Positions 26,950-38,667 of a stretch of 64,000 nucleotides of DNA are shown here, piece after piece. Origin of the DNA: Streptomyces sp. SAI-127. Lineage in GTDB: Bacteria; Actinomycetota; Actinomycetes; Streptomycetales; Streptomycetaceae. The translations under genes and the position numbers were made by a program. The notes under the pieces were generated by a model that worked only from the letters and a program-made list of their open reading frames with translations, was not told the origin of the DNA and did not search any database. How positions within the stretch are numbered: the first letter of the stretch is position 1; each line of letters opens with the position of its first letter. The stretch covers positions 7,088,501-7,152,500 of the forward strand of contig NZ_JARXYJ010000001.1 of the NCBI RefSeq assembly GCF_029894425.1. Reading direction: 5' to 3'.

Positions 26950-27828
26950 GTGCCCGACCATGTGCGTACGGCGGACGGACGACGGTTACGGGTGGAGGTC
27001 TCGGGGGATCCGCACGGACGCCCCGTGTTCCTCCTGCACGGCATGCCCGGCAGCCGGGTGGGGCCGAAACCCCGCTCGTTCTTCCTCCACCAGCGCGGCG
27101 CGCGCCTCATCAGCTACGACCGGCCGGGGTACGGCGGTTCGGACCGCATGCCGCGCCGCCGGGTGGCGGACGTGGCCCAGGATGTGGCCGATGTGGCCGA
27201 CGCCCTCGAACTCGACCGGTTCGCGGTGGCCGGCCGCTCCGCCGGAGCCCCGCACGCCCTGGCCTGCGCCGCGCTGCTGCCGGACCGGGTGACCAGGGCG
27301 GCGGCGTTGGTGGGCTGGGCACCGCGCGACGCGGAGGGCCTGGACTGGTATGCGGGGATGGCGCCGTCCAACGTCGCCGCCCTGAGCACGGCCGCCACCG
27401 ACCCCGAGCGTTTCGCCGCCGGGATCATCCCGCGCTCCGCCGCCATCCGCAGTGATCCCGCGCGCCTGCTGGAGGAACTGCGCGAGGAACTCACCGCCGA
27501 CGACAGGCTGATCGTCTCGGACAACACCATCCGCTCGATGCTGCTGCGCAACTACCGTGAGGCGCTGCGCACTTCGCCGTACGGCTGGATCGACGACGCC
27601 CTGGCCCTCACCGCGTCCTGGGGCTTCGACCCGGCGCGGATCAAGGTGCCGGTGCTGCTGTGGCACGGCAAGGACGACGTCTTCTCCCCGGCCTCGCACG
27701 CCTCCTGGCTCGCCGACCGCATCCCGCGTGCCACGGCCGTCCTGGAACCCACGTCGGCACACTTCGCCGCACTGCGCGCCCTGCCCGCCGTGCTGGACTG
27801 GCTGCTGGCCGAAACGCGGACGCACTGA
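26950..27828 (+). CDS. Alpha/beta hydrolase fold protein
   Basis: A 292-residue hydrolase with the oxyanion-loop motif LLHGMPGSRVG, the nucleophile elbow GRSAGAP (Ser), the acidic stretch LLWHGKDDVFSP (Asp) and the catalytic His near the C-terminus (TSAHFAAL). There is a cap domain between and no signal peptide. The substrate cannot be read from sequence; relatives include epoxide hydrolases, esterases and proline iminopeptidase-like enzymes. GTG 26950 has GGGGGAG upstream. It is flanked by repeat regions on both sides and appears monocistronic. Confidence 0.85.
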   Translation: MPDHVRTADGRRLRVEVSGDPHGRPVFLLHGMPGSRVGPKPRSFFLHQRGARLISYDRPGYGGSDRMPRRRVADVAQDVADVADALELDRFAVAGRSAGAPHALACAALLPDRVTRAAALVGWAPRDAEGLDWYAGMAPSNVAALSTAATDPERFAAGIIPRSAAIRSDPARLLEELREELTADDRLIVSDNTIRSMLLRNYREALRTSPYGWIDDALALTASWGFDPARIKVPVLLWHGKDDVFSPASHASWLADRIPRATAVLEPTSAHFAALRALPAVLDWLLAETRTH

Positions 27829-28273: not shown

Positions 28274-31200
28274 TCACACGGACAGTGGCTCCAGGTCCCG
28301 GTAGATGCGCCGCTCACGGCTCGCCAGCAGGGTGATGCCGTTGTCCTCCCCGAGCAGCAGGCGCAGTTCCGCCAGCGCGTCGTCCCGCAGGGCGCGGGCC
28401 TCGGCGTCACGGCCCAGGGCCCGCAGGGCGAGCCCCAGGTTGGTGACCACGGCGAGCGTCTCGGGGTGGTGGCCGCCGAGGGCCTCGCGCAGCACCGGCA
28501 GCGCCGCCTCGTCCCGTTCCCGCGCCTCCTCGAAGCGGCCCTGGTCGTAGAGGACGTTGGCGTAGTTCACGCTGCTGAACACGGCGTGCGGATGGTGCTC
28601 GCCCAGCACCTCCGCCATGCGGGGCAGCACCTTGAGGAACACCGCCTCCGCCTCGTCCAGGTCCCGGCAGCCCCAGTGGAAGATCCCCAGGTTGTTCAGG
28701 GCCGCCTGGGTGTACGGATGCGCCTCGCCCGGCACCTTCATGTACTCGGCGAGCACCTCCTGGGCCACCTCGCGGGCCCTGTCCCGTTCGTCGGCAGCGA
28801 ACAGGTCCGCCGCCAGGTTCAGGTCGCAGGCCAGCGAGTCGGGCGTCGCGGCCGAGTACTGGTCCTTGTACTGCTTGCGGGTCGCCTCGGTCAGCCGACG
28901 GGCGTCCTCCAGCTGCCCGTTGCGGCGCAGCGACACCGCCAGGGACTTGGCGCAGCGCAGGGTGCCGGGGAACTCCCTGCTCAGGATCCGTTTGTGGGCC
29001 GCGTACGCCCGCGACAGGATGGACACCGACTCCGCGTACCGCCCGACCTCCCTGAGGTCACGGCCGAGCCGCTCGGCCGAGGCCAGCGTGTAGGGATGGT
29101 CGGGGCCGAGGACGGCCGTACGCCGGTCGAGCGTGTCCTGGTCGATGCCGCGTGCCTGGCCGTAGTTGCCCACCATCCGCAGGGCGAGAGCGAGGTTGTT
29201 GGCCGCGCTGAGGGTGCGCCGGTGCGACTCGTGGAAGATCTCGCTGAAGCCGTCGTGCGCCCTCTTGGCCAGGTCGACCGCCTTCGTGTACTCGCCCAGG
29301 GCCGCCAGGTCGCTGGAGAGCGCGGACATGGTGGCGTACGTGTGCGGGTGCTGTTCGCCCAGTTCCCGGCGCTGGCGTTCGAGCAGGTCCTCGCCGATCT
29401 CCCGGGCCTCCACGTAACGCCCCTGCGACCGCAGCACGTTGGCGAGGTGGAAACGCAGGTAGAGGTAGTAGACGTCGTCCTCCCCGAGCACCGGCATCCA
29501 GTGCTGGAGCAGGTCCTCCGCGAGGCGCCTCGCGGCCAGGAAGTCACCGCGTTTCCACTGGTAGCGGACCCGGTCGATGAGCAGTCGACGGGTGTCGGCC
29601 TCACGGCAGTTGCGGGCGTCGGAAGCGGACAGGTGCGGCCAGATGACGGCGAAGCGGGGCCACGTGGCCGGGTCGTCGATGGGTTCGTCGCCGTCGGGCC
29701 GGGCGCCCGCCAGGACGGTATGCACGACGTGCCGGGCCTCCTGCTGCTTCTCCTCGGGCATCTGGGCGCGGATCACCGCCTGCACCAGCCGGTGCACCTG
29801 GAGGCTGTTGGTCTTCTGGTCGACCTTGGCGAGCGCGAACCGGCCGATCTCCCGGATGACCCGGCCGAGCAGCAGGCTCTCCTGGAGCGAGGGGTCGTAC
29901 GGCTTGAGCGCAGTGATCATCTCCTTGCTGTAGAGCAGTTGCTGGGAGATCGGCTCGGGAGCGAGGAAGGCGCACAGCTGCAGCAGCCGCACCGCCGCGG
30001 GTGACCGCTTCTCCAGCTGTTCGATCGACACGTTCCAGGTGGCCGCGACCGTCCGCGGGTAGTCGGGCGGCTGGTTGAGGTCCAGCACCTCGGTGGTCTG
30101 CCGGGCCAGCTGTCGCAGATAGTCCTCTATCGGGGTGGCGGTCTCGGCCAGCCAGGCCGCCGCCTGCTCGACCGCCAGCGGCAGGTCGCCGAGGGCCTCC
30201 GCCACCCGGTCGGCGTCCTCGGCCGTCAGGCCGTCCTCGCGGCGCCGGGTCAGGTGCTCGATGCTTTCCTTGCGCTCGAAGACGTCGATCTGCTGGGACG
30301 CCCCGTGCTGGGACCAGGCCTGGTTGCGGGAGGTGACGAGGATGTGCCCACCGTCCCCGGTGGGGAAGTAGCGGGCCAGCTCCGCGGGATCGCCGGCGTT
30401 GTCGAAGACCAGGATCCAGCGCTTGGTCGGCAGCCCGCGGGACAGCCGCTGCACGGCTTCCTGGCTGGCCTTCGTCATGTCGTCCTCGGGGCTCGTCGCG
30501 CCTATCAGCGGGGCGAGTTCGGCCAGCGAGGCGACCACGTCGTCGATGTGTTCGGCGGACATCCACCAGACCAGGTCGTAGTCGGCCATGAAGCGGTGCA
30601 CGTACTCGATGGCGAGCTGGGTCTTGCCCACGCCGCCCAGTCCGAACAGTGCCTGCGGCTGCGGCGGGCCGGACAGGTCGCCCAGCTGCGTGCGGATCCG
30701 GTCCATGATCGGGGCCCGGCCGGTGAAGGTGGTGTTGCGCTGGGGCGCGTTCCAGATACCGGGGGTGATGCCGGGGAAGCGGGGGGCCGAGGGGCTGCTC
30801 TCGGCCGGCTGCAGCGGGAGTTCCAGCGCGCGCTGGAGCGCGGCCACACACTCCGTCTCGTCGAGCCGGTGCAGGTCGGTGCACGGCTCCGGGAGCGGGA
30901 CCTCCTCGACCCGCAGCGGCACCACCGAGCTGCGGGCGCCGTCCGGGGTCCGCTCGCCGAGGGCACGCCAGACGGAGTCGGCGTACCGGGACTCCTGGAA
31001 GGTCTTCGACAGCAGCACCACGGTGTGGGCGGTCGTCTCCGCCGGCTCGACCGGGCCGGTGGATATCTCGTGCAGCGTGACCTCGCAGCCGGCCCGCTTG
31101 AGGAGGTACTCGACCCAGTCGGCCCACATCCGCTTCTCCGCCGCGTACGCGACCACGACATCGGCCACGCTGGTCAGCGGCCGGCGCCTGAGGTAGGCGT

Positions 31201-32194
31201 CCCGGCAGCGCAGCCGGACCGGTTCGGGGATCTGCGGCAGCGAGGTGACCTCGCGGTCGGAGATGACGGCCGTGAGCCGCTCGAAGGCGGACAGCAGCGA
31301 GTTGGCGATGCCGCTCTCGTCGCCGACGGTGGCGAGGGTCTCCTCGTAGGCGTAGTACGGGCGGTAGGGGATCTCGACGTTGCCCCAGTAGGCGCTGAGC
31401 TCCTCCTGGCTCAGCGGCCGGCCGTCCGCCCCCTTGGGCAGTCCCTCGAACCGCATCCGGGCCAGCGCGCGACCGGCGTCGACCTTCTCCTTCTCGCCCT
31501 CGTCGATGCGCATCGGCACCGGCAGGACCCGTATCCGGCGCGGCCGGTAGCCCTCCTCGACACTGCGGGCGACCACCGCCGCTCCCTCCAGCGCCTGGTC
31601 GCTGAGGGTGAAGCAGTCCACCAGAACGTCGGGCATCTCCATGGTGCAGATGTCGGCGTTGTCCGAGAGACCGGTGCGGCTGTCGATCAGGACGTAGTCG
31701 TACGTCTTCTTCATGCTGGCCCTGAGCGCCCTGAGGAAGGTGCCGCCGCCGAGGCGCTCGTAGAAGTTGTCCCACTCGAACGAGGTGACCGCCGCCGAGT
31801 AGGCCCGGTCCTGGCGGCCCGCGGAGAGGAAGTCGAGGGAGCCGCCCTCGGGGAAGTGCAGGTCGAAGCGCTCGGGCCGGATGGACACGGCGTGCTGCTC
31901 GACCTGGGCGTAGGCCAGGTGCCAGTCGTCGGGGCGCTGGGTGCCCGTGGTCGCGGCCCAGGCGTAGTCCTGGATGATGTTGATGACCCCCGGGGTCGCG
32001 GACAGCGCCTTGGGGTCCAGGAACGGGTGGAAGAAGCGGTGCAGGCCCGGCGCCTCCAGGTCCCAGTCGACCGCGAGCACGCGTTTGCCGTTGGCCGCGA
32101 GGATCCAGGCGGTGTTGGCCAGGGCCATGGTGCGGCCCGTACCGCCCTTGTACGAATAGAAAGTGATGACACGTCCGTCGCGCGGGCCCGTCAT
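28274..32194 (-). CDS. fxsT: FxSxx-COOH system protein FxsT: ParA-like, TIR-like, NB-ARC and TPR domains
   Basis: A very large protein of 1306 residues. In order: a ParA/MinD-like ATPase with deviant Walker A (YKGGTGRTMALAN, about 16-27) and VLAVDWDLEAPG, to about 310; a TIR-like segment (VADVVVAYAAEKRMWADWVE, then HTVVLLSKTFQESRY, about 343-455); an NB-ARC/STAND NTPase with P-loop GLGGVGKT (518-525) and Walker B WILVFDNA (593-600); and TPRs from about 870 to the end (e.g. EDLLERQRRELGEQHPHTYA). The architecture resembles NLR immune sensors. It is soluble. ATG 32194 overlaps the fxsC stop; the longer upstream frame is a by-product. It is the last gene of the fxs operon. Confidence 0.88.
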   Translation of the reverse strand: MTGPRDGRVITFYSYKGGTGRTMALANTAWILAANGKRVLAVDWDLEAPGLHRFFHPFLDPKALSATPGVINIIQDYAWAATTGTQRPDDWHLAYAQVEQHAVSIRPERFDLHFPEGGSLDFLSAGRQDRAYSAAVTSFEWDNFYERLGGGTFLRALRASMKKTYDYVLIDSRTGLSDNADICTMEMPDVLVDCFTLSDQALEGAAVVARSVEEGYRPRRIRVLPVPMRIDEGEKEKVDAGRALARMRFEGLPKGADGRPLSQEELSAYWGNVEIPYRPYYAYEETLATVGDESGIANSLLSAFERLTAVISDREVTSLPQIPEPVRLRCRDAYLRRRPLTSVADVVVAYAAEKRMWADWVEYLLKRAGCEVTLHEISTGPVEPAETTAHTVVLLSKTFQESRYADSVWRALGERTPDGARSSVVPLRVEEVPLPEPCTDLHRLDETECVAALQRALELPLQPAESSPSAPRFPGITPGIWNAPQRNTTFTGRAPIMDRIRTQLGDLSGPPQPQALFGLGGVGKTQLAIEYVHRFMADYDLVWWMSAEHIDDVVASLAELAPLIGATSPEDDMTKASQEAVQRLSRGLPTKRWILVFDNAGDPAELARYFPTGDGGHILVTSRNQAWSQHGASQQIDVFERKESIEHLTRRREDGLTAEDADRVAEALGDLPLAVEQAAAWLAETATPIEDYLRQLARQTTEVLDLNQPPDYPRTVAATWNVSIEQLEKRSPAAVRLLQLCAFLAPEPISQQLLYSKEMITALKPYDPSLQESLLLGRVIREIGRFALAKVDQKTNSLQVHRLVQAVIRAQMPEEKQQEARHVVHTVLAGARPDGDEPIDDPATWPRFAVIWPHLSASDARNCREADTRRLLIDRVRYQWKRGDFLAARRLAEDLLQHWMPVLGEDDVYYLYLRFHLANVLRSQGRYVEAREIGEDLLERQRRELGEQHPHTYATMSALSSDLAALGEYTKAVDLAKRAHDGFSEIFHESHRRTLSAANNLALALRMVGNYGQARGIDQDTLDRRTAVLGPDHPYTLASAERLGRDLREVGRYAESVSILSRAYAAHKRILSREFPGTLRCAKSLAVSLRRNGQLEDARRLTEATRKQYKDQYSAATPDSLACDLNLAADLFAADERDRAREVAQEVLAEYMKVPGEAHPYTQAALNNLGIFHWGCRDLDEAEAVFLKVLPRMAEVLGEHHPHAVFSSVNYANVLYDQGRFEEARERDEAALPVLREALGGHHPETLAVVTNLGLALRALGRDAEARALRDDALAELRLLLGEDNGITLLASRERRIYRDLEPLSV

Positions 32195-33591
32195 GCTTCT
32201 CCTCCGTGGTCGGGTCCGCCTTCCGGGTACGGCGGCTGGATGGGGCCCAGCAGACGGGGCCTGGGCACGTGCGGTCCCGGCGGCGGATGGGCCTCCGCGT
32301 GTTTGAGGTACTGCCGGGTGGTGTGCGCCACGACGGCGGGCAGCACGTCGGTGAACGCCTTGAGCGTGGGGACGCCGTTGACCGCGGTACGGCAGTCGGT
32401 GCGTCTGCCGCGCTCCAGCAGCAGCGGGAGCGTGCGCTCGAACTCCATGGTCAGGCGCTGTCCCTCGTCGCCGTGACACTGCAGGTCGGCCCGGTTCCAG
32501 GGGACGACCGCGCTCACCCACGGCTGGGCCTGGGCGTCGAACGCCTTCAGTCTGCGCCGCCGTTCCTCGTCGGTCAGCGTCCACCGGTCGACGAGCAGGA
32601 TGCGCGGCCGGCCGGTCTTGCCGCTCTCCTCGCCGGTGCCGGGGGAGAGGGGGCCGTCGGTGTCCTCGTCGTCGAAGGAGGAGACCGTGGGCCGGTAGTC
32701 CAGCGAGCGGATCAGCTCCTCCGCCAGGGCGGGCAGCGGGCGCGTCGACTCGGAGTGGTAGGGGTTCCAGTCCAGCGCGTCCTCGCCGTAGGGGCGCGGG
32801 TCGCGGTCCTCGGGGACGCTGTCGCGGGTGGGTGCGGCCACCGTCAGATGGATGTGCCGCGGTTCCTCGCCGCGCGGCCGGAACGCACTCGGTGTCGACT
32901 CGTAGTCGCGCAGCCGGCCCGGCGGCAGCGGCGACTCCTCGGCCACCTGGACGATCCGCTGGGCGAGGGTGAGGACGGTCTCCTCGTACTCGTCGCGCAG
33001 CCTGCTGAGTTTGATGAGCCCGTAGAAGCCGTTGGTCGCGTAACGGTCGCCGAAGGTCGTGCGATCGAGGTGTATGTGGCGTATGGAGTCCGGCAGTTGG
33101 TGGAAGTCGACGCGCGTCCACAGGGCCGGGACGATGGCCGACACCTCGCGTCCGCCGGCGGCCCGGGCGTGCAGGATGCGCTCGTTGAACGCGAACAGTT
33201 CACGGCCGCACATCTCGCTGGTGAAGTAGCGCGGTGACAGCAGCGGTACGAAGACCCGGCAGCGGGCCAGGTTCTCGCTGAGCTTCCTCGGCCACCCCAC
33301 GCCGGAGCCCATCTCCCGGTCTATGAAGCCGACTTCGGCGCCGGCGGGCAGGTCGGTCAGCGCCATGATGTGGTTGCACAGGTCCCGGTAGAGCTGGTGC
33401 ACCCAGTGATCGGGGTCGCCGCCACCCGAACCCCACGGCGGGGTGTGGGCGTAGCTGAGGAAGAAATAGGGCTGCCCCTCGGCCGAGGCCTGCCCCCACT
33501 CTCCGTCAGGTGTGTCCAACACGCCCCCCTGCGCGTCGATGACCCCGTAGCCGGAGCCACCTGTGACCGGAAGAACAATGTGCCTGACCAA
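32191..33591 (-). CDS. fxsC: TIR-like protein FxsC
   Basis: Up to 466 residues. The N-terminal TIR-like domain (about 42-190) has YFFLSYAHTPP, then RVFVPLLSPRYFTSEMCGRE, where the C-x-x-E-L arrangement sits at the position of the TIR catalytic Glu. The remainder (about 200-466) is family-specific, with SLDYRPTVSSFDDEDTD and a tail rich in proline. The TTG start at 33591 has only a weak ribosome site; GTG 33522 or TTG 33519 may be the real start, since the conserved part begins at GEWGQASAEGQPYFF. It overlaps fxsT by 4 bp. Role unknown: a TIR fold suggests NAD-related chemistry or signalling. Confidence 0.85.
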   Translation of the reverse strand: MVRHIVLPVTGGSGYGVIDAQGGVLDTPDGEWGQASAEGQPYFFLSYAHTPPWGSGGGDPDHWVHQLYRDLCNHIMALTDLPAGAEVGFIDREMGSGVGWPRKLSENLARCRVFVPLLSPRYFTSEMCGRELFAFNERILHARAAGGREVSAIVPALWTRVDFHQLPDSIRHIHLDRTTFGDRYATNGFYGLIKLSRLRDEYEETVLTLAQRIVQVAEESPLPPGRLRDYESTPSAFRPRGEEPRHIHLTVAAPTRDSVPEDRDPRPYGEDALDWNPYHSESTRPLPALAEELIRSLDYRPTVSSFDDEDTDGPLSPGTGEESGKTGRPRILLVDRWTLTDEERRRRLKAFDAQAQPWVSAVVPWNRADLQCHGDEGQRLTMEFERTLPLLLERGRRTDCRTAVNGVPTLKAFTDVLPAVVAHTTRQYLKHAEAHPPPGPHVPRPRLLGPIQPPYPEGGPDHGGEA

Positions 33592-33608
33592 GGGCCTGGG
33601 CGGTTCAC

Positions 33609-34391
33609 TTAATTCAGGTCATTTCGGAGGCGATATCTGGACAGTTGATCGCGTACGTCGTCCACGACGGCCCTCATACCGAAGAGCGTGACCGTCTTTC
33701 CGGCCCACTGTCCCCGGGTGAGGAGCTTGCCCGGCAGCCGGGCGCCCATCTCCGCGAAGTCCCGGTCGTCCAGGGCGACATCCTCGTACGGGTACCAGTT
33801 GCCCGGCGCTCCGACCACGCACCGGTACTCGCGTGTGGGGGGTGCCGGAGTCATGCGGTACTCGGCGAGATGGAAGGCGCTGCACACCTCGAACCCGACG
33901 CGCAGCAACAGCACTTCGGCGTCCGCCGCGTACAGCCGGGCGAGCGGGGATCGCTCACCGAGGTGGCAGTGCGGGTCGTGTCCGGACAGCAACTCGGCGG
34001 CCCGCGCCCCGATTCCGGCCAGCGAGGTCTGCGGATGCGCGCTGCGCACGGCTCCCCTCGTGGTGCGCACGCACTCGGCGAGCGCGCCCATCGACGGACA
34101 GGGCGTGGTGTCCGGGTCGAAGGGGAGCATCTTCCGCGCCCGGTACGCGGCGGCCTCCTCCGCGCTCAGGTGGGCGACGCGGGCCCGGTGGGCGCGGGAG
34201 GTGTCCGAGTTCTCCGGGGTGAAGGCCGGCACCACGAGGGTCCCGTCGGGCCCGAGGGCGGCCAGCAGCGCGTCCCGGACCAGGGTGGGGGGCAGCCCGG
34301 TGCCGCTCAGCGAGGTGTGCACCATGAGGACACCGCCGGGTCGGATGCCCAACTCGCCCAGCAGCAGGCGCAGTCGCGTCAGCTCAGACAA
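33609..34391 (-). CDS. AAC(3)-family N-acetyltransferase-like protein
   Basis: A protein of about 260 residues with the aminoglycoside 3-N-acetyltransferase fold: VLMVHTSLSGTG, PDGTLVVPAFTPENSDTS, then SMGALAECVRTTRGAVRSAHP and the histidine-containing HLGERSPLARLY. The proposed start is TTG 34391, which overlaps fxsB by 8 bp and restores the usual N-terminus (LSELTRLRLLLGELGIRPG). AAC(3)-like genes are recurrent members of fxs cassettes, so its substrate may be the modified peptide rather than an antibiotic; that is inference. Acyl donor would be acetyl-CoA. Confidence 0.8.
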   Translation of the reverse strand: MSELTRLRLLLGELGIRPGGVLMVHTSLSGTGLPPTLVRDALLAALGPDGTLVVPAFTPENSDTSRAHRARVAHLSAEEAAAYRARKMLPFDPDTTPCPSMGALAECVRTTRGAVRSAHPQTSLAGIGARAAELLSGHDPHCHLGERSPLARLYAADAEVLLLRVGFEVCSAFHLAEYRMTPAPPTREYRCVVGAPGNWYPYEDVALDDRDFAEMGARLPGKLLTRGQWAGKTVTLFGMRAVVDDVRDQLSRYRLRNDLN

Positions 34392-36549
34392 GTCGCTGCC
34401 ACTCCGCGCGCAGTTCCTCCAGGAGGGCGGCGCCGCTCTCGGTGAGCTCCCGCGCGGGCAGTCCGTCAAGCCGGGTCAGGGCCCGTTCCGTGCGGGCCAG
34501 CGCCGAGGCCGCCGCAGCACTCGAGGGCCCCGCGTGTTCGGCGTCCCCCAGGGCGTCGGACGCCTCGGTGAACAACTCGCCGGCCGTGCTTCCCGGCACG
34601 TGCAGATGCGCCGCCTCGCGCAGCGCGGCCAGCCGGGCCCGGCGCAGGTGACGAGGTAATTCCCTTGCCAGTACGGCGGGTTCGGCGTCGACCGCGACAC
34701 CCAGCGCGCCCAGCCCGTGCTCGTCGCCGCGGATGCCCGTCCCGGCCTGGAGCGGGGTGACGACGGCGAGGAGCAGCGGAGGACGCGGCCCGGACGACAG
34801 CGCGGTACGAAGACGGTCCCTGAACGCGGCCAGGGCGTCCGGAGCCAGGGGGGCGGACACCTCGGCCGCGTAGACGGCACGCCAGGGGTCGGCGTCGTCG
34901 ATGAGCAGCGGCGGTGTGCCCTTGCCGTCGGACATCTCCAGCGTCGTCAGCGGCCGCCACCACGGGCCGGGACCGGTGTCCGTCGCCAGTGAGCTGCCGT
35001 CGGCGAGACGCACGCTCACCGTGCGGCCGGTGACGGTCGCCTCCACGCGCCCGGGGGCGGGCAGTGTCATGGTGCCCAGCGTCGGAAGGTGCAGCTCGCG
35101 GGACGGCTGCTCCCAGGAGAGCCGCAGGGGGGCCTGGGCGTGAACGGCCGCGGCGACCGCGACGGACGCGCAGCGGGCGGTCGTGGTGGTGCCGGACTGG
35201 CCCGAGCGGCGCAGTGAGGACCGTACATAGGGGTGGGTCAGCAGTCGGTTGAGGTGGGTGGCTCCGTCGTCGTCCGCGTCCAGTCGCAGCAGGGCGTGCC
35301 AGGTCTCGTCCCAGTCCGGGCGCCCGGCGAGCCGTTCGTTGGCGGCGGCCAGCCGTTCCCGGTCCTGTTTGAGCAGGGCGAAGGACAGCTCGTCCGGGTC
35401 GTGGACGCCGGGGAAGAGGGCGCGTTCGGTGATCCGGTCGGCGATGCCGTCGACCAGGGCCCGCAGGTCCGCGCAGAACACGGAGGGATTGTCGAAGCCG
35501 CTCTCGGAGCTGTAGCGGTGGGCGTAGAGGCCACCGCCGCAGGACTCCACCACGGGACAGCGACGGCAGGTCTCGGACACTCCCGCGAGGCCCGTCTGGC
35601 GGGCCCGCACCCCGGGATGCCGGGCGAGTTCCGCGAAGTCGTTCCGGAAGACGTCGTACCCCGTGGCGGGGGCGCCGTCGTAGGCGGTCTTCAGCGAGTC
35701 CGCCTGCTCGAAGGTGCCGTCGGTCTCCACGACCGCGAGGTCGGACGGGGCGAGCCCCATGGCCTCGGTCAGGCTGGGGCCGCCGCGCAGGGTGCTGAGC
35801 ACCGAGTCGAAGGTCCGCACGGGCACCTTGCGGCCCTGCTCGGTCCAGCGGTCGAAGATGGTCAACAGCCAGTCGGCGTACGGGGTTGGTGAGCCGGAGT
35901 CGCCGCGTGGGGGCGGTGTGTCCCAGGTGGAGTGCGGCAGGAGGTAGTCGATGCGCGGCGGATCGAGCGCGGTCAGTGCGTCATGGACGGCGACCGGGTC
36001 GTTGCGGACGTCGACGGTGCACAGCAGTCCGCCGAAGAGGTGACGGTACGGCGGTGTCTGCAACAGGTCGACGGCGCGCAGGACCCGGTCGTAACTGCTC
36101 CTGCCGCGACGGTCGAGCCGGTGCCGGTCGTTGGCGAGCCTGTCGCCGTCCAGGCTCAGGCTCACCCGGACGCCGAATTCCGCGAACACGTCCAGATGGC
36201 GTCTGCTCAGCTGAATTCCGTTGGTGTGAATACGGAGGTCCAGCGTGGTGACATCGGTGAGTGCGGTGTTGAGTTCTGAGCAGATCTCGCGCAGTCGGGC
36301 CGGGCCCGCGAGAAGGGGTTCACCGCCGTGCAGGATGACGGAGACGGATTCCAGTCCGACGGTTCCGGCGTATTCGGCGAGCCGCTGGGCCGTCTGAGTG
36401 ACCGTCTCCTTCTGGATGACGACCGGCCGCGCTTTCCAGCTCCGGTCGGCGTGCTCGTAGACGTAACAGTGGTCGCACGCCAGATCGCAGCGGCTGTGCA
36501 CCTTGAAAACGAGCTGCTGGAGCGGGGTGTCCGCTGCGGGGTCGGTCAT
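34384..36549 (-). CDS. fxsB: Radical SAM/SPASM maturase FxsB
   Basis: A 721-residue enzyme. The radical SAM cluster motif C-x3-C-x2-C is at Cys21/25/28 (SRCDLACDHCYVYEH). The SPASM cysteines follow near residue 330 (ETCRRCPVVESCGGGLYAHR, then VFCADL). The C-terminal ~330 residues are the extension that distinguishes FxsB, described in protein families as an inactivated metallohydrolase; I see no HExxH there. Related enzymes form three-residue cyclophanes by linking an aromatic ring to a neighbouring side chain, and FxsA ends in F-x-S-x-x, the expected substrate. Leu631 is encoded by TTA (34657-34659), a likely bldA checkpoint. ATG 36549. Confidence 0.92.
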   Translation of the reverse strand: MTDPAADTPLQQLVFKVHSRCDLACDHCYVYEHADRSWKARPVVIQKETVTQTAQRLAEYAGTVGLESVSVILHGGEPLLAGPARLREICSELNTALTDVTTLDLRIHTNGIQLSRRHLDVFAEFGVRVSLSLDGDRLANDRHRLDRRGRSSYDRVLRAVDLLQTPPYRHLFGGLLCTVDVRNDPVAVHDALTALDPPRIDYLLPHSTWDTPPPRGDSGSPTPYADWLLTIFDRWTEQGRKVPVRTFDSVLSTLRGGPSLTEAMGLAPSDLAVVETDGTFEQADSLKTAYDGAPATGYDVFRNDFAELARHPGVRARQTGLAGVSETCRRCPVVESCGGGLYAHRYSSESGFDNPSVFCADLRALVDGIADRITERALFPGVHDPDELSFALLKQDRERLAAANERLAGRPDWDETWHALLRLDADDDGATHLNRLLTHPYVRSSLRRSGQSGTTTTARCASVAVAAAVHAQAPLRLSWEQPSRELHLPTLGTMTLPAPGRVEATVTGRTVSVRLADGSSLATDTGPGPWWRPLTTLEMSDGKGTPPLLIDDADPWRAVYAAEVSAPLAPDALAAFRDRLRTALSSGPRPPLLLAVVTPLQAGTGIRGDEHGLGALGVAVDAEPAVLARELPRHLRRARLAALREAAHLHVPGSTAGELFTEASDALGDAEHAGPSSAAAASALARTERALTRLDGLPARELTESGAALLEELRAEWQRLV

Positions 36550-36655
36550 TTACCACAGATTAGTACCTACGGCCACCCCTGACGCCCCGGTTCGAGACAA
36601 CTCCCAGGTGAACCAGAGGGGTTGACGGGGGAGCGGTGTACCGGTGAGGTTGACT

Positions 36656-36705
36656 CAGAAGTGGGCTGCGCAAGCCCAACGAGGCTGACTTACAGCCCAC
36701 TTCTG
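36656..36705 (-). terminator. Long inverted repeat between fxsA and fxsB
   Basis: Perfect 13-bp arms CAGAAGTGGGCTG (36656-36668) and CAGCCCACTTCTG (36693-36705) enclose a 24-base loop, 25 bp after the fxsA stop. As an RNA hairpin it would terminate or attenuate the transcript so that precursor is made in excess over FxsB. It could also protect the fxsA mRNA 3' end. The 181-bp gap contains no other gene. Confidence 0.7.
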
Positions 36706-36730
36706 TCAAGCGAGTGCCGGACAGCGCGAT

Positions 36731-36904
36731 TTACAGTGCACTGTCGAACGTGATGGGCTTGGCGGGACGCCTTTCCGGGACGTCCAGAACCCGAGCGGCC
36801 TCGGTCCTGGCCGACTCGCTGGGGACGATCGTCCCGAGCGGGGTGAGTCGACGGGACGTGGGACCGGAGACCGGTCCGCGCTCCGTGGTGGTTTGTGCGT
36901 TCAT
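36731..36904 (-). CDS. fxsA: FxSxx-COOH RiPP precursor FxsA
   Basis: A 57-residue peptide, ATG 36904 to TAA, ending exactly in F-D-S-A-L-COOH, the FxSxx terminus that defines this precursor class. Before the core is a leader with the stretch LTPLGTIVPSESARTEAARV. It is the first gene of the cassette on the same strand as fxsB, with GAGAGGAG about 12 bases upstream of the ATG. FxsB is expected to crosslink the Phe and a following residue of the terminal motif. The final product and how it is released are unknown. A longer frame upstream of the ATG (to 37093) has no ribosome site. Confidence 0.9.
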   Translation of the reverse strand: MNAQTTTERGPVSGPTSRRLTPLGTIVPSESARTEAARVLDVPERRPAKPITFDSAL

Positions 36905-37110
36905 GTGTGCTGATGTCTCCTCTCGAGGGCACCGGTCTGCCCCCGGCCCAAGGGGACCAGAGGGTCCGGTGTCGCTTCGCGATCCATGAGGCAGAGACAG
37001 CCCGGGTTTAGGCGGACGATACCTCAGGAGACCCGGCCCGGAGCATGGCTTGACGGCGCGTACACGCCCATACTCGATGGTCCAGGTGAGCATGCCGTCG
37101 GGGGTGGTTC
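36905..37110. promoter_or_regulatory. Divergent leader region between fxsA and the SLATT gene
   Basis: These 206 bp separate the minus-strand fxs operon from the plus-strand SLATT gene and must contain both promoters. No convincing -35/-10 pair or dyad could be fixed by eye. The shared position allows coordinated control of the two units. Confidence 0.3.
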
Positions 37111-38025
37111 ATGAGCGCCGCAATTCCGGGTCCTGGCACGACATGGAGTGAACACGACCTCCCCCCGCTCTTCCGCGTTAACGATCAACTCGCGATCACC
37201 CATCAGAGTGAATCGTTCCGCGCCGTCCGCGCCCAATTGCTCGTCCTGCTCGCGGCGACCACCTCGGCCATGCTGGCCGAACGCCTGGACAGCCATGTCC
37301 CGGCGTTCCTCGCCGCGCTGCTGTACGCCCTGACCATCGGCATCGGACTGCGCACCACACGCCGTCGTGCCCGCGCACGCTGGCAGGCCCACCGTGCCGT
37401 GGCCGAGCTGCTGAAGTCCCTGGCGTGGCAGTACATGGTGCACGGCGGGATCTTCCACTCCCAGGTGGCCAACGCGGACGCGCTGTTCGCGGAACGGGTC
37501 GAGGAACGCCTCAGAGAGATGCGCAAGGTGGGCTGGGAGGACTCCAGGAACGGGGTCCACGCTCGCGGCGAGGGCCAGATCACCCCGGCGATGCGTCAGG
37601 TACGGGCGAAGGCCTTCTCGGTGCGGCGGGACATCTACCTGCGTGAGCGATTACTCGAGCAGCACGCCTGGTACCGGCGGCGTGCCGCCCAGGCCCACCG
37701 CGCCTCCATGCAGTGGTCCTCAGTGACCGCCGTACTGACCCTCCTGGCGCTGCTGGCGGCCGTGTTCAGGGCGGCCGGGATGCTCGGCGCCTGGGACCTG
37801 ACCGGGGTGCTCAGCGCGGCCGCGGCGGCCGGGGTCGCCTGGCAGGAGGTGCGCCGGCACCGGCCGCTGACCTACGCCCACTCGCTCGTCGAGCAGGATC
37901 TGGAGACCCTGCGGGTCGAGATGAGCACGACCGTGACCGAGGACCGGTGGGCCCTGGCGGTGGCGGAGGCGGAGCGGCTGGTGTCGCCGCAGCACTCGGA
38001 CTGGCTCGGCAGGTTCGGTGGCTGA
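37111..38025 (+). CDS. SLATT/DUF4231 family membrane protein
   Basis: A 304-residue protein with two membrane hairpins, at about 45-80 (LLVLLAATTSAMLAERL, then LAALLYALTIGIGL) and about 203-245 (SVTAVLTLLALLAAVF, then a second span), separated by a long charged helical middle with an REMRKVGWEDSRN segment. This is the DUF4231 form of the SLATT family, two-TM proteins predicted to act as membrane-disrupting effectors in nucleotide-sensing conflict systems. Leu181 is a TTA codon (37651-37653). It faces a SLOG-like gene 21 bp away and diverges from fxsA. The family assignment is strong; a defence role is inference. Confidence 0.8.
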   Translation: MSAAIPGPGTTWSEHDLPPLFRVNDQLAITHQSESFRAVRAQLLVLLAATTSAMLAERLDSHVPAFLAALLYALTIGIGLRTTRRRARARWQAHRAVAELLKSLAWQYMVHGGIFHSQVANADALFAERVEERLREMRKVGWEDSRNGVHARGEGQITPAMRQVRAKAFSVRRDIYLRERLLEQHAWYRRRAAQAHRASMQWSSVTAVLTLLALLAAVFRAAGMLGAWDLTGVLSAAAAAGVAWQEVRRHRPLTYAHSLVEQDLETLRVEMSTTVTEDRWALAVAEAERLVSPQHSDWLGRFGG

Positions 38026-38046: not shown

Positions 38047-38595
38047 TCATGGCGCGCGGCGCACGTCCGGCTCCCACAGCACGGTCACCGGCACCCCAGT
38101 CCTCCGCGCGTAGGCGACCACATCGCCGGTGCCCCCCAGCCCCCGGGCCGGGCGGCCGTCCCACACGGCGATCAGGCGGTCGCAGTGGTCGACGATCCAG
38201 CGGCCCGCCGCGAAGTACGCCTCCTCGTGCGTCGGCTCGGGCGGCAGATCGACGCGGTTCGCGCAGGCGCGCAGGATCCTGCGGTACCCGGCGCGCGCCG
38301 CGTCGTCGTCGAGGTGGGCCTCGTAGTCCATGCCCGGGATCACCGCCGTCACCGGGACACCGCCCGCCAGGGCGATGTCCGCGAACAGCTGGTCGGCGCC
38401 GGCCGCGAGACAGGTGAAGGCCTCCAGGGCGCCGCCGCTGAGGTGCCTGCGCATCTCCGCACGCACACCCGGCAGGACGGCGCCCGGGATGGAGCGGTGC
38501 CCCGTCACGCCGATCCGGGTGACGGAGGTGTGAGCCGGTGCGGTCGCGGTGGAATCGGTTCCGGCCTGTCGGGTCGTCGCGGTTCCGCTCGTCAC
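38047..38595 (-). CDS. SLOG-like nucleotide-binding domain protein
   Basis: A 182-residue Rossmannoid protein. Signature stretches are RIGVTGHRSI at the first strand, FTCLAAGADQLFADIAL, VTAVIPGMDYEAH, DHCDRLIAVWDGRPA and the glycine-rich GGTGDVVAYARR, which match the SLOG superfamily (DprA/LOG-like pockets that bind nucleotides or ligands). GTG 38595 is chosen for GGGAGG seven bases upstream. It is convergent with the SLATT gene. SLATT and SLOG families were defined partly by such pairing, with SLOG as the ligand sensor and SLATT as the membrane effector. Confidence 0.75.
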   Translation of the reverse strand: MTSGTATTRQAGTDSTATAPAHTSVTRIGVTGHRSIPGAVLPGVRAEMRRHLSGGALEAFTCLAAGADQLFADIALAGGVPVTAVIPGMDYEAHLDDDAARAGYRRILRACANRVDLPPEPTHEEAYFAAGRWIVDHCDRLIAVWDGRPARGLGGTGDVVAYARRTGVPVTVLWEPDVRRAP

Positions 38596-38667
38596 GAGAG
38601 AGCCTCCCACAGCCGTCGGAACTCCACCGTAACGCCGTCGGCGGGGAGCACACAGGGGCGCACCTGC

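Follow-up and report, generated by a model that had tools for sequence, protein, structure and literature searches.

The window analysed here is a 64,000-nucleotide stretch of Streptomyces sp. SAI-127 (contig NZ_JARXYJ010000001.1, positions 7,088,501 to 7,152,500), and its subject is an FxSxx-COOH locus, in which a ribosomally synthesized and post-translationally modified peptide (RiPP) is encoded beside NLR-like genes. The five minus-strand genes named in a preliminary description of this DNA, namely fxsA, fxsB, an AAC(3)-like gene, fxsC and fxsT, are all present in that order at 28274-36904. The cassette is not "complete" within those bounds, since the genes for a SLATT protein, a SLOG protein and an alpha/beta-hydrolase that lie outside them are likewise conserved. 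The described gene overlaps are found in the layout, while three starts need correction. In our reading, these are most likely an ATG at 32194 for fxsT (a 4-nt overlap with fxsC) and not the open reading frame (ORF) start at 33121, a GTG at 33522 for fxsC, and a TTG at 34391 for the AAC(3)-like gene (an 8-nt overlap with fxsB). The hairpin between fxsA and fxsB was matched in stability by none of 200 shuffled sequences; it is a possible attenuator or stabiliser, perhaps setting the ratio of peptide to enzyme.

Table 1. Features of the Fxs locus and its flanks, in window positions.
Feature	Position	Strand	Remarks
ABH (alpha/beta-hydrolase)	26950..27828	+	convergent with fxsT; PF00561 66.9 bits
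fxsT	28274..32194	-	ParA-like, TIR-like, NB-ARC, DUF7779, TPR; 1306 aa; NF040586, Pfam
fxsC	32191..33522	-	TIR + FxsC C-terminal domain; probable GTG start
AAC(3)-like (Antibiotic_NAT) acyltransferase	33609..34391	-	PF02522 212 bits; TTG start inferred
fxsB	34384..36549	-	radical SAM/SPASM, HExxH-less extension; TIGR04269, NF040587
Hairpin between fxsA and fxsB	36640..36730	-	-40.5 kcal/mol, z -3.53
fxsA	36731..36904	-	57-aa precursor, C-terminus ITFDSAL
Divergent intergenic region, fxsA to SLATT gene	36905..37110	.	206 bp; room for both promoters
Double SLATT (SLATT_3 + SLATT_1), candidate membrane effector	37111..38025	+	304 aa; PF18184, PF18181
SLOG-fold protein	38047..38610	-	convergent with SLATT; conserved core 38050-38529

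Related loci were collected by a scan of public genomes, and the locus counts refer to the 80 FxsB loci that were the best of 335, picked by likeness to the window's FxsB. Neighbouring genes were found by clustering over 81 loci and then by profile searches. Because this set was selected on FxsB likeness, a second sample of 150 genomes of the genus was used, with FxsB counted as present at E<=1e-60 and a SLATT relative as strong at E<1e-60; FxsB is present in 94 of the 150 Streptomyces genomes. The co-occurrence of FxsB, FxsC and FxsT that had been expected is well conserved (FxsC in 75 and FxsT in 74 of the 80 loci), and contig ends account for two of the five absences of FxsC and four of the six of FxsT. 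They cut off the fxsT end of L017, L031, L050 and L057 and the SLATT end of L021 (L and G numbers are our handles for loci and genomes). Absences away from contig ends are seen in L044 and L066 (no FxsC, FxsT or hydrolase), L065 (no FxsC, SLATT or SLOG), and L023, L029, L033 and L038 (no SLATT or SLOG). Only the Fxs genes, SLATT, SLOG and the hydrolase form gene clusters that recur in over 47 of the 81 loci, all others occurring in at most 47. There is no exporter in this core set, which fits an intracellular peptide. Transporter-like genes, judged by eye and not by scanning, lie about 10 kb from the cassette in 13 and 17 of the 81 loci.

The SLATT protein scores 159.6 bits against PF18184 (SLATT_3) and 127.1 bits against PF18181 (SLATT_1), the cut-off being 26.3 for each, and has hydrophobic peaks near residues 43-61, 63-81 and 206-224. 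The SLOG protein is a 187-aa single-domain ORF with a predicted SLOG-type Rossmann fold; a PDB sequence search with its profile returned nothing, and NCBIfam gave scattered single matches only on 32 SLOG proteins. Each occurs in 74 of the 80 FxsB loci, SLATT mostly divergent from fxsA and the SLOG-like protein convergent with SLATT. Over the 119 loci with an FxsB match, at the score limits used, both genes are present in 77 and neither in 42, with no discordant locus; contig ends cut three of the 42 (L021, L093 and L099). Strong SLATT relatives were detected in 41 of the 150 genomes, and in 39 of these 41 SLATT lies within 12 kb of FxsB (the table by genome reads 39/10/2/99). One of the exceptions, G422, has its SLATT gene beside fxsA and a contig-edge fragment of fxsB (L111). 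In six loci of one clade the block from fxsA to fxsT is inverted between SLATT and the hydrolase, and the SLATT-SLOG association is retained. In addition, L110 combines a short FxsB with FxsC and FxsT that have diverged, and next to them stand a SLOG gene, a SLATT gene whose product is 69% identical to that of the window, and an AAC(3)-like gene of the type found in the window. From this linkage, SLOG-SLATT probably belongs to the Fxs system.

On a tree of FxsB, made by a quick method, the SLATT label changes five times; the direction of the changes is our reading. Within the long form of FxsB, SLATT shows a single gain and was lost along three lineages (the L023 group, L065 and L097), and L110 represents a second association. 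The covariation of gene distances (rho 0.74-0.89) was not used because species descent alone could produce it. No plasmid record covered at least 80% of SLATT or FxsB. The 12 loci drawn from 74 places with a weaker SLOG relative show no SLATT gene beside that relative, and the four distant SLATT places that were fetched, of six, lack SLOG. One distant SLATT gene is divergent from a TIR-WD40 gene (L145:6052-9971), another TIR-SLATT neighbourhood.

The 57-residue precursor ending in F-D-S-A-L is as first described. Against its own family model, TIGR04268, FxsA reaches 15.4 bits (E 0.017), below the curated cut-off of 28, with an alignment that spans positions 5-44 of the 44-position model; the preliminary description had staked its reading on this match and, taken literally, loses it here. 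The same model is matched at E<=0.1 by 52 of 65 related FxSxx peptides. Of 80 related loci, 78 have an FxSxx ORF directly upstream of fxsB, and 103 of the 13934 ORFs of 25-150 aa in the loci (fxsA genes included) end in F.S... The 65 less redundant FxSxx peptides share an invariant R38 and an L23 conserved in at least 90%, neither of which was selected for; the F and S of F.S.. are invariant because they were. No signal peptide was seen by eye in the window's FxsA. A link between Gln at an x of FxSxx (nine loci) and the absence of SLATT follows the tree and was set aside. One FxsA-like ORF with two FNSFI cores adjoins a short FxsB (L128:10748-10951).

FxsB is a radical SAM/SPASM protein with a long C-terminal extension, as described, scoring 595 bits against TIGR04269 (cut-off 370). 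Its extension matches NF040587, the "inactivated beta-hydroxylase extension form", at 268 bits versus 225. The radical SAM motif CDLACDHC (CxxxCxxC) is conserved across 81 FxsB sequences and HExxH occurs in none of the 81, on which ground a peptidase role for the extension was rejected. The closest solved chain is ChlB (9gm3, E 6.8e-83). By homology to tested enzymes, whose chemistry is taken from PMC11002830 and PMC12636437, FxsA is predicted to carry a Phe53-Ser55 cyclophane. PADLOC matched FxsB to viperin-type radical SAM models only (best 31.3 bits). Beside another short FxsB lies a precursor-like ORF (L112:10826-11068) with a hydrophobic N-terminal stretch and the end SFNSSAPSD; this short-FxsB branch may export its peptide.

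FxsC and FxsT carry the domains that had been assigned to them. FxsC scores 223.5 bits against NF040588 (cut-off 130) and 169.7 against TIGR04276 (cut-off 55). FxsT scores 1004 bits against NF040586 (cut-off 300), and Pfam finds TIR_2, NB-ARC, DUF7779 and TPRs in it. The ParA-type domain of FxsT reads KGGVGR, with Arg in place of the P-loop Lys, while its NB-ARC domain (PF00931, 36.7 bits versus 23.5) has an intact P-loop, GLGGVGKT, conserved over 75 sequences; together with the repeats, this fits a STAND/NLR protein. The TIR domains of the two proteins differ at the catalytic position, where a Glu is present in 95 of 100 FxsC sequences and absent from the FxsT TIR, so that the FxsC TIR is the only one of the locus with a catalytic glutamate. 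The TIR assignment of FxsC is based on Pfam, NCBIfam and VIA-align, and the conserved residue indicates that FxsC is probably an active TIR. PADLOC matched FxsT to candidate-system models, PDC-M28B (73.8 bits), and the other six proteins to nothing. In the window's own genome (G000), 34 places match the FxsT model, three of them above its cut-off, but only one FxsB lies above its own.

The AAC(3)-like gene was rightly placed in Pfam's Antibiotic_NAT family, and it is found in 42 of the 80 FxsB loci. The [ST]xxHxAE motif described for Antibiotic_NAT acyltransferases in PMC8956665 retains its Ser/Thr, His and Glu in 43 of 43 of these proteins. Drug resistance was rejected as its function, since the protein falls below the AAC(3) cut-offs examined (the best NCBI AAC(3) model gives 105.9 bits versus 270) and its nearest solved relative is FrbF (E 1.1e-43), reported in PMC8956665 to be without aminoglycoside activity. 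Neither is a Lys of the FxsA core supported as acyl acceptor, as several loci with an AAC(3)-like gene have no Lys there. A relative of the alpha/beta-hydrolase stands beside the cassette, beyond fxsT, in 74 of the 80 FxsB loci. In another family, L125 and L126 combine the cassette with an AAC(3)-like gene and a hydrolase and have no SLATT; the acyltransferase and hydrolase therefore look older than SLATT-SLOG.

FxsC and FxsT also occur apart from the peptide genes. Of 60 strong FxsC places, FxsB is nearby at 48 and not at the other 12, of which 11 were fetched. The 12 include six in which FxsC is fused to a large protein and one at a contig end. L148 has an FxsC-FxsT pair with open frames, lacks FxsA, FxsB and SLATT, and shares its kinds of upstream gene with L023. 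L149, L150 and L151 have open-frame FxsC-FxsT pairs without FxsA or FxsB, together with an extra TIR-like gene and a second ParA-TIR gene; L159 resembles them, with the extra TIR-like gene and without FxsA and FxsB, but its FxsT is in pieces. By gene content, these last four loci are a peptide-free sister system. L155 has FxsT alone. The genomes of L148, L149 and L150 have no FxsB at E<=1e-60, and that of L151 has one elsewhere. In the fusions (L152-L154 and L156-L158), the TIR and C-terminal module of FxsC form the C-terminal end of proteins of 945 to about 1570 aa; Pfam, applied to three of them, finds TIR in all (below cut-off in L154) and TPRs in one. We guess from MoxR-like neighbours, seen by eye at several loci, that these large proteins are vWA components. 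MoxR-like and long vWA-looking genes also lie a few kb upstream of the cassette in L023, L029, L033 and L148, the MoxR-like gene of L148 having been scanned by Pfam.

We tentatively read the locus as an intracellular immune-type conflict operon that takes a peptide as its input and acts on the membrane as its output, a reading that we think possible as a whole relay but short of probable. FxsB would cross-link Phe53 and Ser55 of FxsA into a C-terminal three-residue cyclophane, and the FrbF-like acyltransferase and the alpha/beta-hydrolase would modulate the peptide or its turnover. This peptide would remain in the cell and, as one input, would be bound and read by FxsT through its TPR region; FxsT would switch through its NB-ARC domain so that its dead TIR becomes a scaffold that gathers FxsC by TIR-TIR contact. 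The FxsC TIR would then make an NAD+-derived signal. The SLOG protein would sense this signal, binding of such a nucleotide being suggested by fold similarity, and would gate the SLATT membrane protein, so that the cell leaks and then stops or dies, with a presumed benefit against phage or rivals. The roles of SLATT and SLOG are drawn from predictions and from work on Thoeris. We count for this relay the family and fold assignments, the published roles of SLATT and SLOG, the SLATT-SLOG linkage, the split of the catalytic Glu between FxsC and FxsT, the fusions of the FxsC module and the likeness of FxsB to ChlB. Its most specific form, in which a bacterial NLR has a cyclophane RiPP as its ligand within the cell and a peptide-hormone-like immune relay proceeds through two TIR steps, an NAD+-derived messenger, a SLOG sensor and a SLATT pore, is doubtful.

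Several observations weigh against the relay. In two SLATT-positive loci, L069 and L077, the Glu of FxsC is replaced by Gln, and Foldseek of the FxsC model gave no PDB match below E 0.001 (the best, at 0.002, was a plant NLR). The output module and the sensor genes can part, in that L023, L029, L033, L038 and L095 have FxsC and FxsT without SLOG-SLATT, whereas L044 and L066 have SLOG-SLATT without FxsC and FxsT. There is no nearby SLATT at 16 of the 54 high-scoring (long-type) FxsB places, a few of which are on short contigs, and in G450 a SLOG-SLATT pair stands by itself without the cassette (L104). Moreover, SLATT-SLOG was seemingly gained once in the long-FxsB clade and mostly inherited, so that much of the linkage is accounted for by common ancestry. 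That single gain with vertical inheritance, the standalone pair of L104 and the many Fxs loci without SLOG-SLATT would all suit an independent two-gene module that merely shares the site of an Fxs operon able to function without it. We consider this unlikely in view of the proximity to FxsB of 39 of the 41 strong SLATT genes (with G422, one of the two others, having fxsA and a contig-edge fragment of fxsB next to SLATT), the survival of the linkage through operon inversion, and the pairing in L110 with another type of FxsB.

The peptide itself could act in other ways. It could be a released toxin or diffusible signal, as proposed in 2020, with FxsT, FxsC and SLATT amplifying the effect or protecting the producer. 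The hydrophobic stretch of the L112 precursor, the retention of FxsA, FxsB and the hydrolase in L097 without FxsC and FxsT, and the transporter-like flanking genes point this way, but the core set has no exporter, HExxH is missing from every FxsB and the window's FxsA has no visible signal peptide, which leaves release rather improbable. Alternatively, the cyclophane could be a guard or keeper that restrains FxsT, its loss (for example by an attack on radical SAM chemistry) freeing the TIR/SLATT response. FxsA and FxsB do persist where FxsC and FxsT are gone (L044, L066 and L097), as expected of the protective half of a pair. However, the open-frame FxsC-FxsT pairs of L148-L151, the lone FxsT of L155 and the 12 strong FxsC places away from FxsB mean that FxsC and FxsT persist without FxsA and FxsB, which makes it less likely that a guard peptide is obligatory. 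Once such loci turned up, the keeper model was demoted from the leading position, and we now think it quite unlikely. The earlier suggestion of a danger signal or guard ligand, not a secreted antibiotic, thus keeps the support of an exporter-free core and loses strength in its guard form. The preliminary description as a whole is partly supported; it overlooked the SLOG-SLATT output module, the split between a live FxsC TIR and a dead FxsT TIR, and the alpha/beta-hydrolase.

Should the relay hold, it would make a RiPP an intracellular immune ligand. With the linked SLOG-SLATT, the idea of a "toxin or signal" becomes a relay that can be tested step by step, and the live/dead TIR split indicates which protein to assay. 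FxsB is common in Streptomyces, as counted above, whereas the literature searched, figures and supplements aside, yielded no biological role of FxSxx peptides that had been put to the test. Nor did any paper among the matches listed, which include few subscription papers and leave aside figures and supplements, link FxSxx loci with SLOG or SLATT; thus the peptide-sensor idea is not new, and the added modules apparently are.

The coupling of a peptide to a TIR/STAND sensor, which the conserved co-occurrence supports, was already predicted by Kaur et al. in 2020 (PMC7159879), who described standalone FxSxx systems with TIR/AP-ATPase and inactive ParA proteins and suggested a toxin or amplifying signal. 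Their actinobacterial systems share with the window the FxSxx precursor, the radical SAM/SPASM enzyme and a TIR/AP-ATPase/TPR protein with inactive MinD/ParA, but have a zincin-like metallopeptidase motif (HExxH) that is absent here. The text of their account of FxSxx loci, figures and data files aside, names no SLOG, SLATT, AAC(3)-like or alpha/beta-hydrolase component; SLATT appears three times in the main text, with GTPase-centred systems. Thoeris likewise joins a TIR enzyme to a SLOG sensor and, in some types, to a transmembrane effector, and the catalytic Glu of its TIR is present in FxsC. The SLOG domain of ThsA is activated by 3'cADPR (3' cyclic ADP-ribose; PMC11204291). In the window, the SLOG protein is separate and without SIR2, SLATT is the candidate effector, and the locus further has an NB-ARC/TPR sensor and a proposed peptide input; neither form of the ThsA effector (SIR2-SLOG or TM-macro) was found, and no Thoeris model was among the PADLOC matches. 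SLATT has been proposed as a membrane effector regulated by ADP-ribose derivatives, with TIR-SLATT neighbours in phages (PMC9503650); these Firmicute phage pairs similarly place a TIR beside a SLATT membrane protein, but the passages concerned name no peptide or NB-ARC protein. The AAC(3)-like protein shares fold family and motif with FrbF and AAC(3) enzymes, and differs in its sub-threshold AAC(3) scores and in being embedded in a peptide operon. With the triceptide (three-residue cyclophane) enzymes ChlB and ChlBH the locus has in common the CxxxCxxC motif, the TIGR04269 SPASM model, an F-x-S core as substrate and an FxsB nearest to ChlB, whereas its extension lacks HExxH, the genes are tied to NLR/TIR partners and the core set is free of an exporter. 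Since most parts pass the FxSxx-COOH models, FxsA alone falling below its cut-off, the locus is best described as a variant of the FxSxx-COOH system with a linked SLOG-SLATT module.

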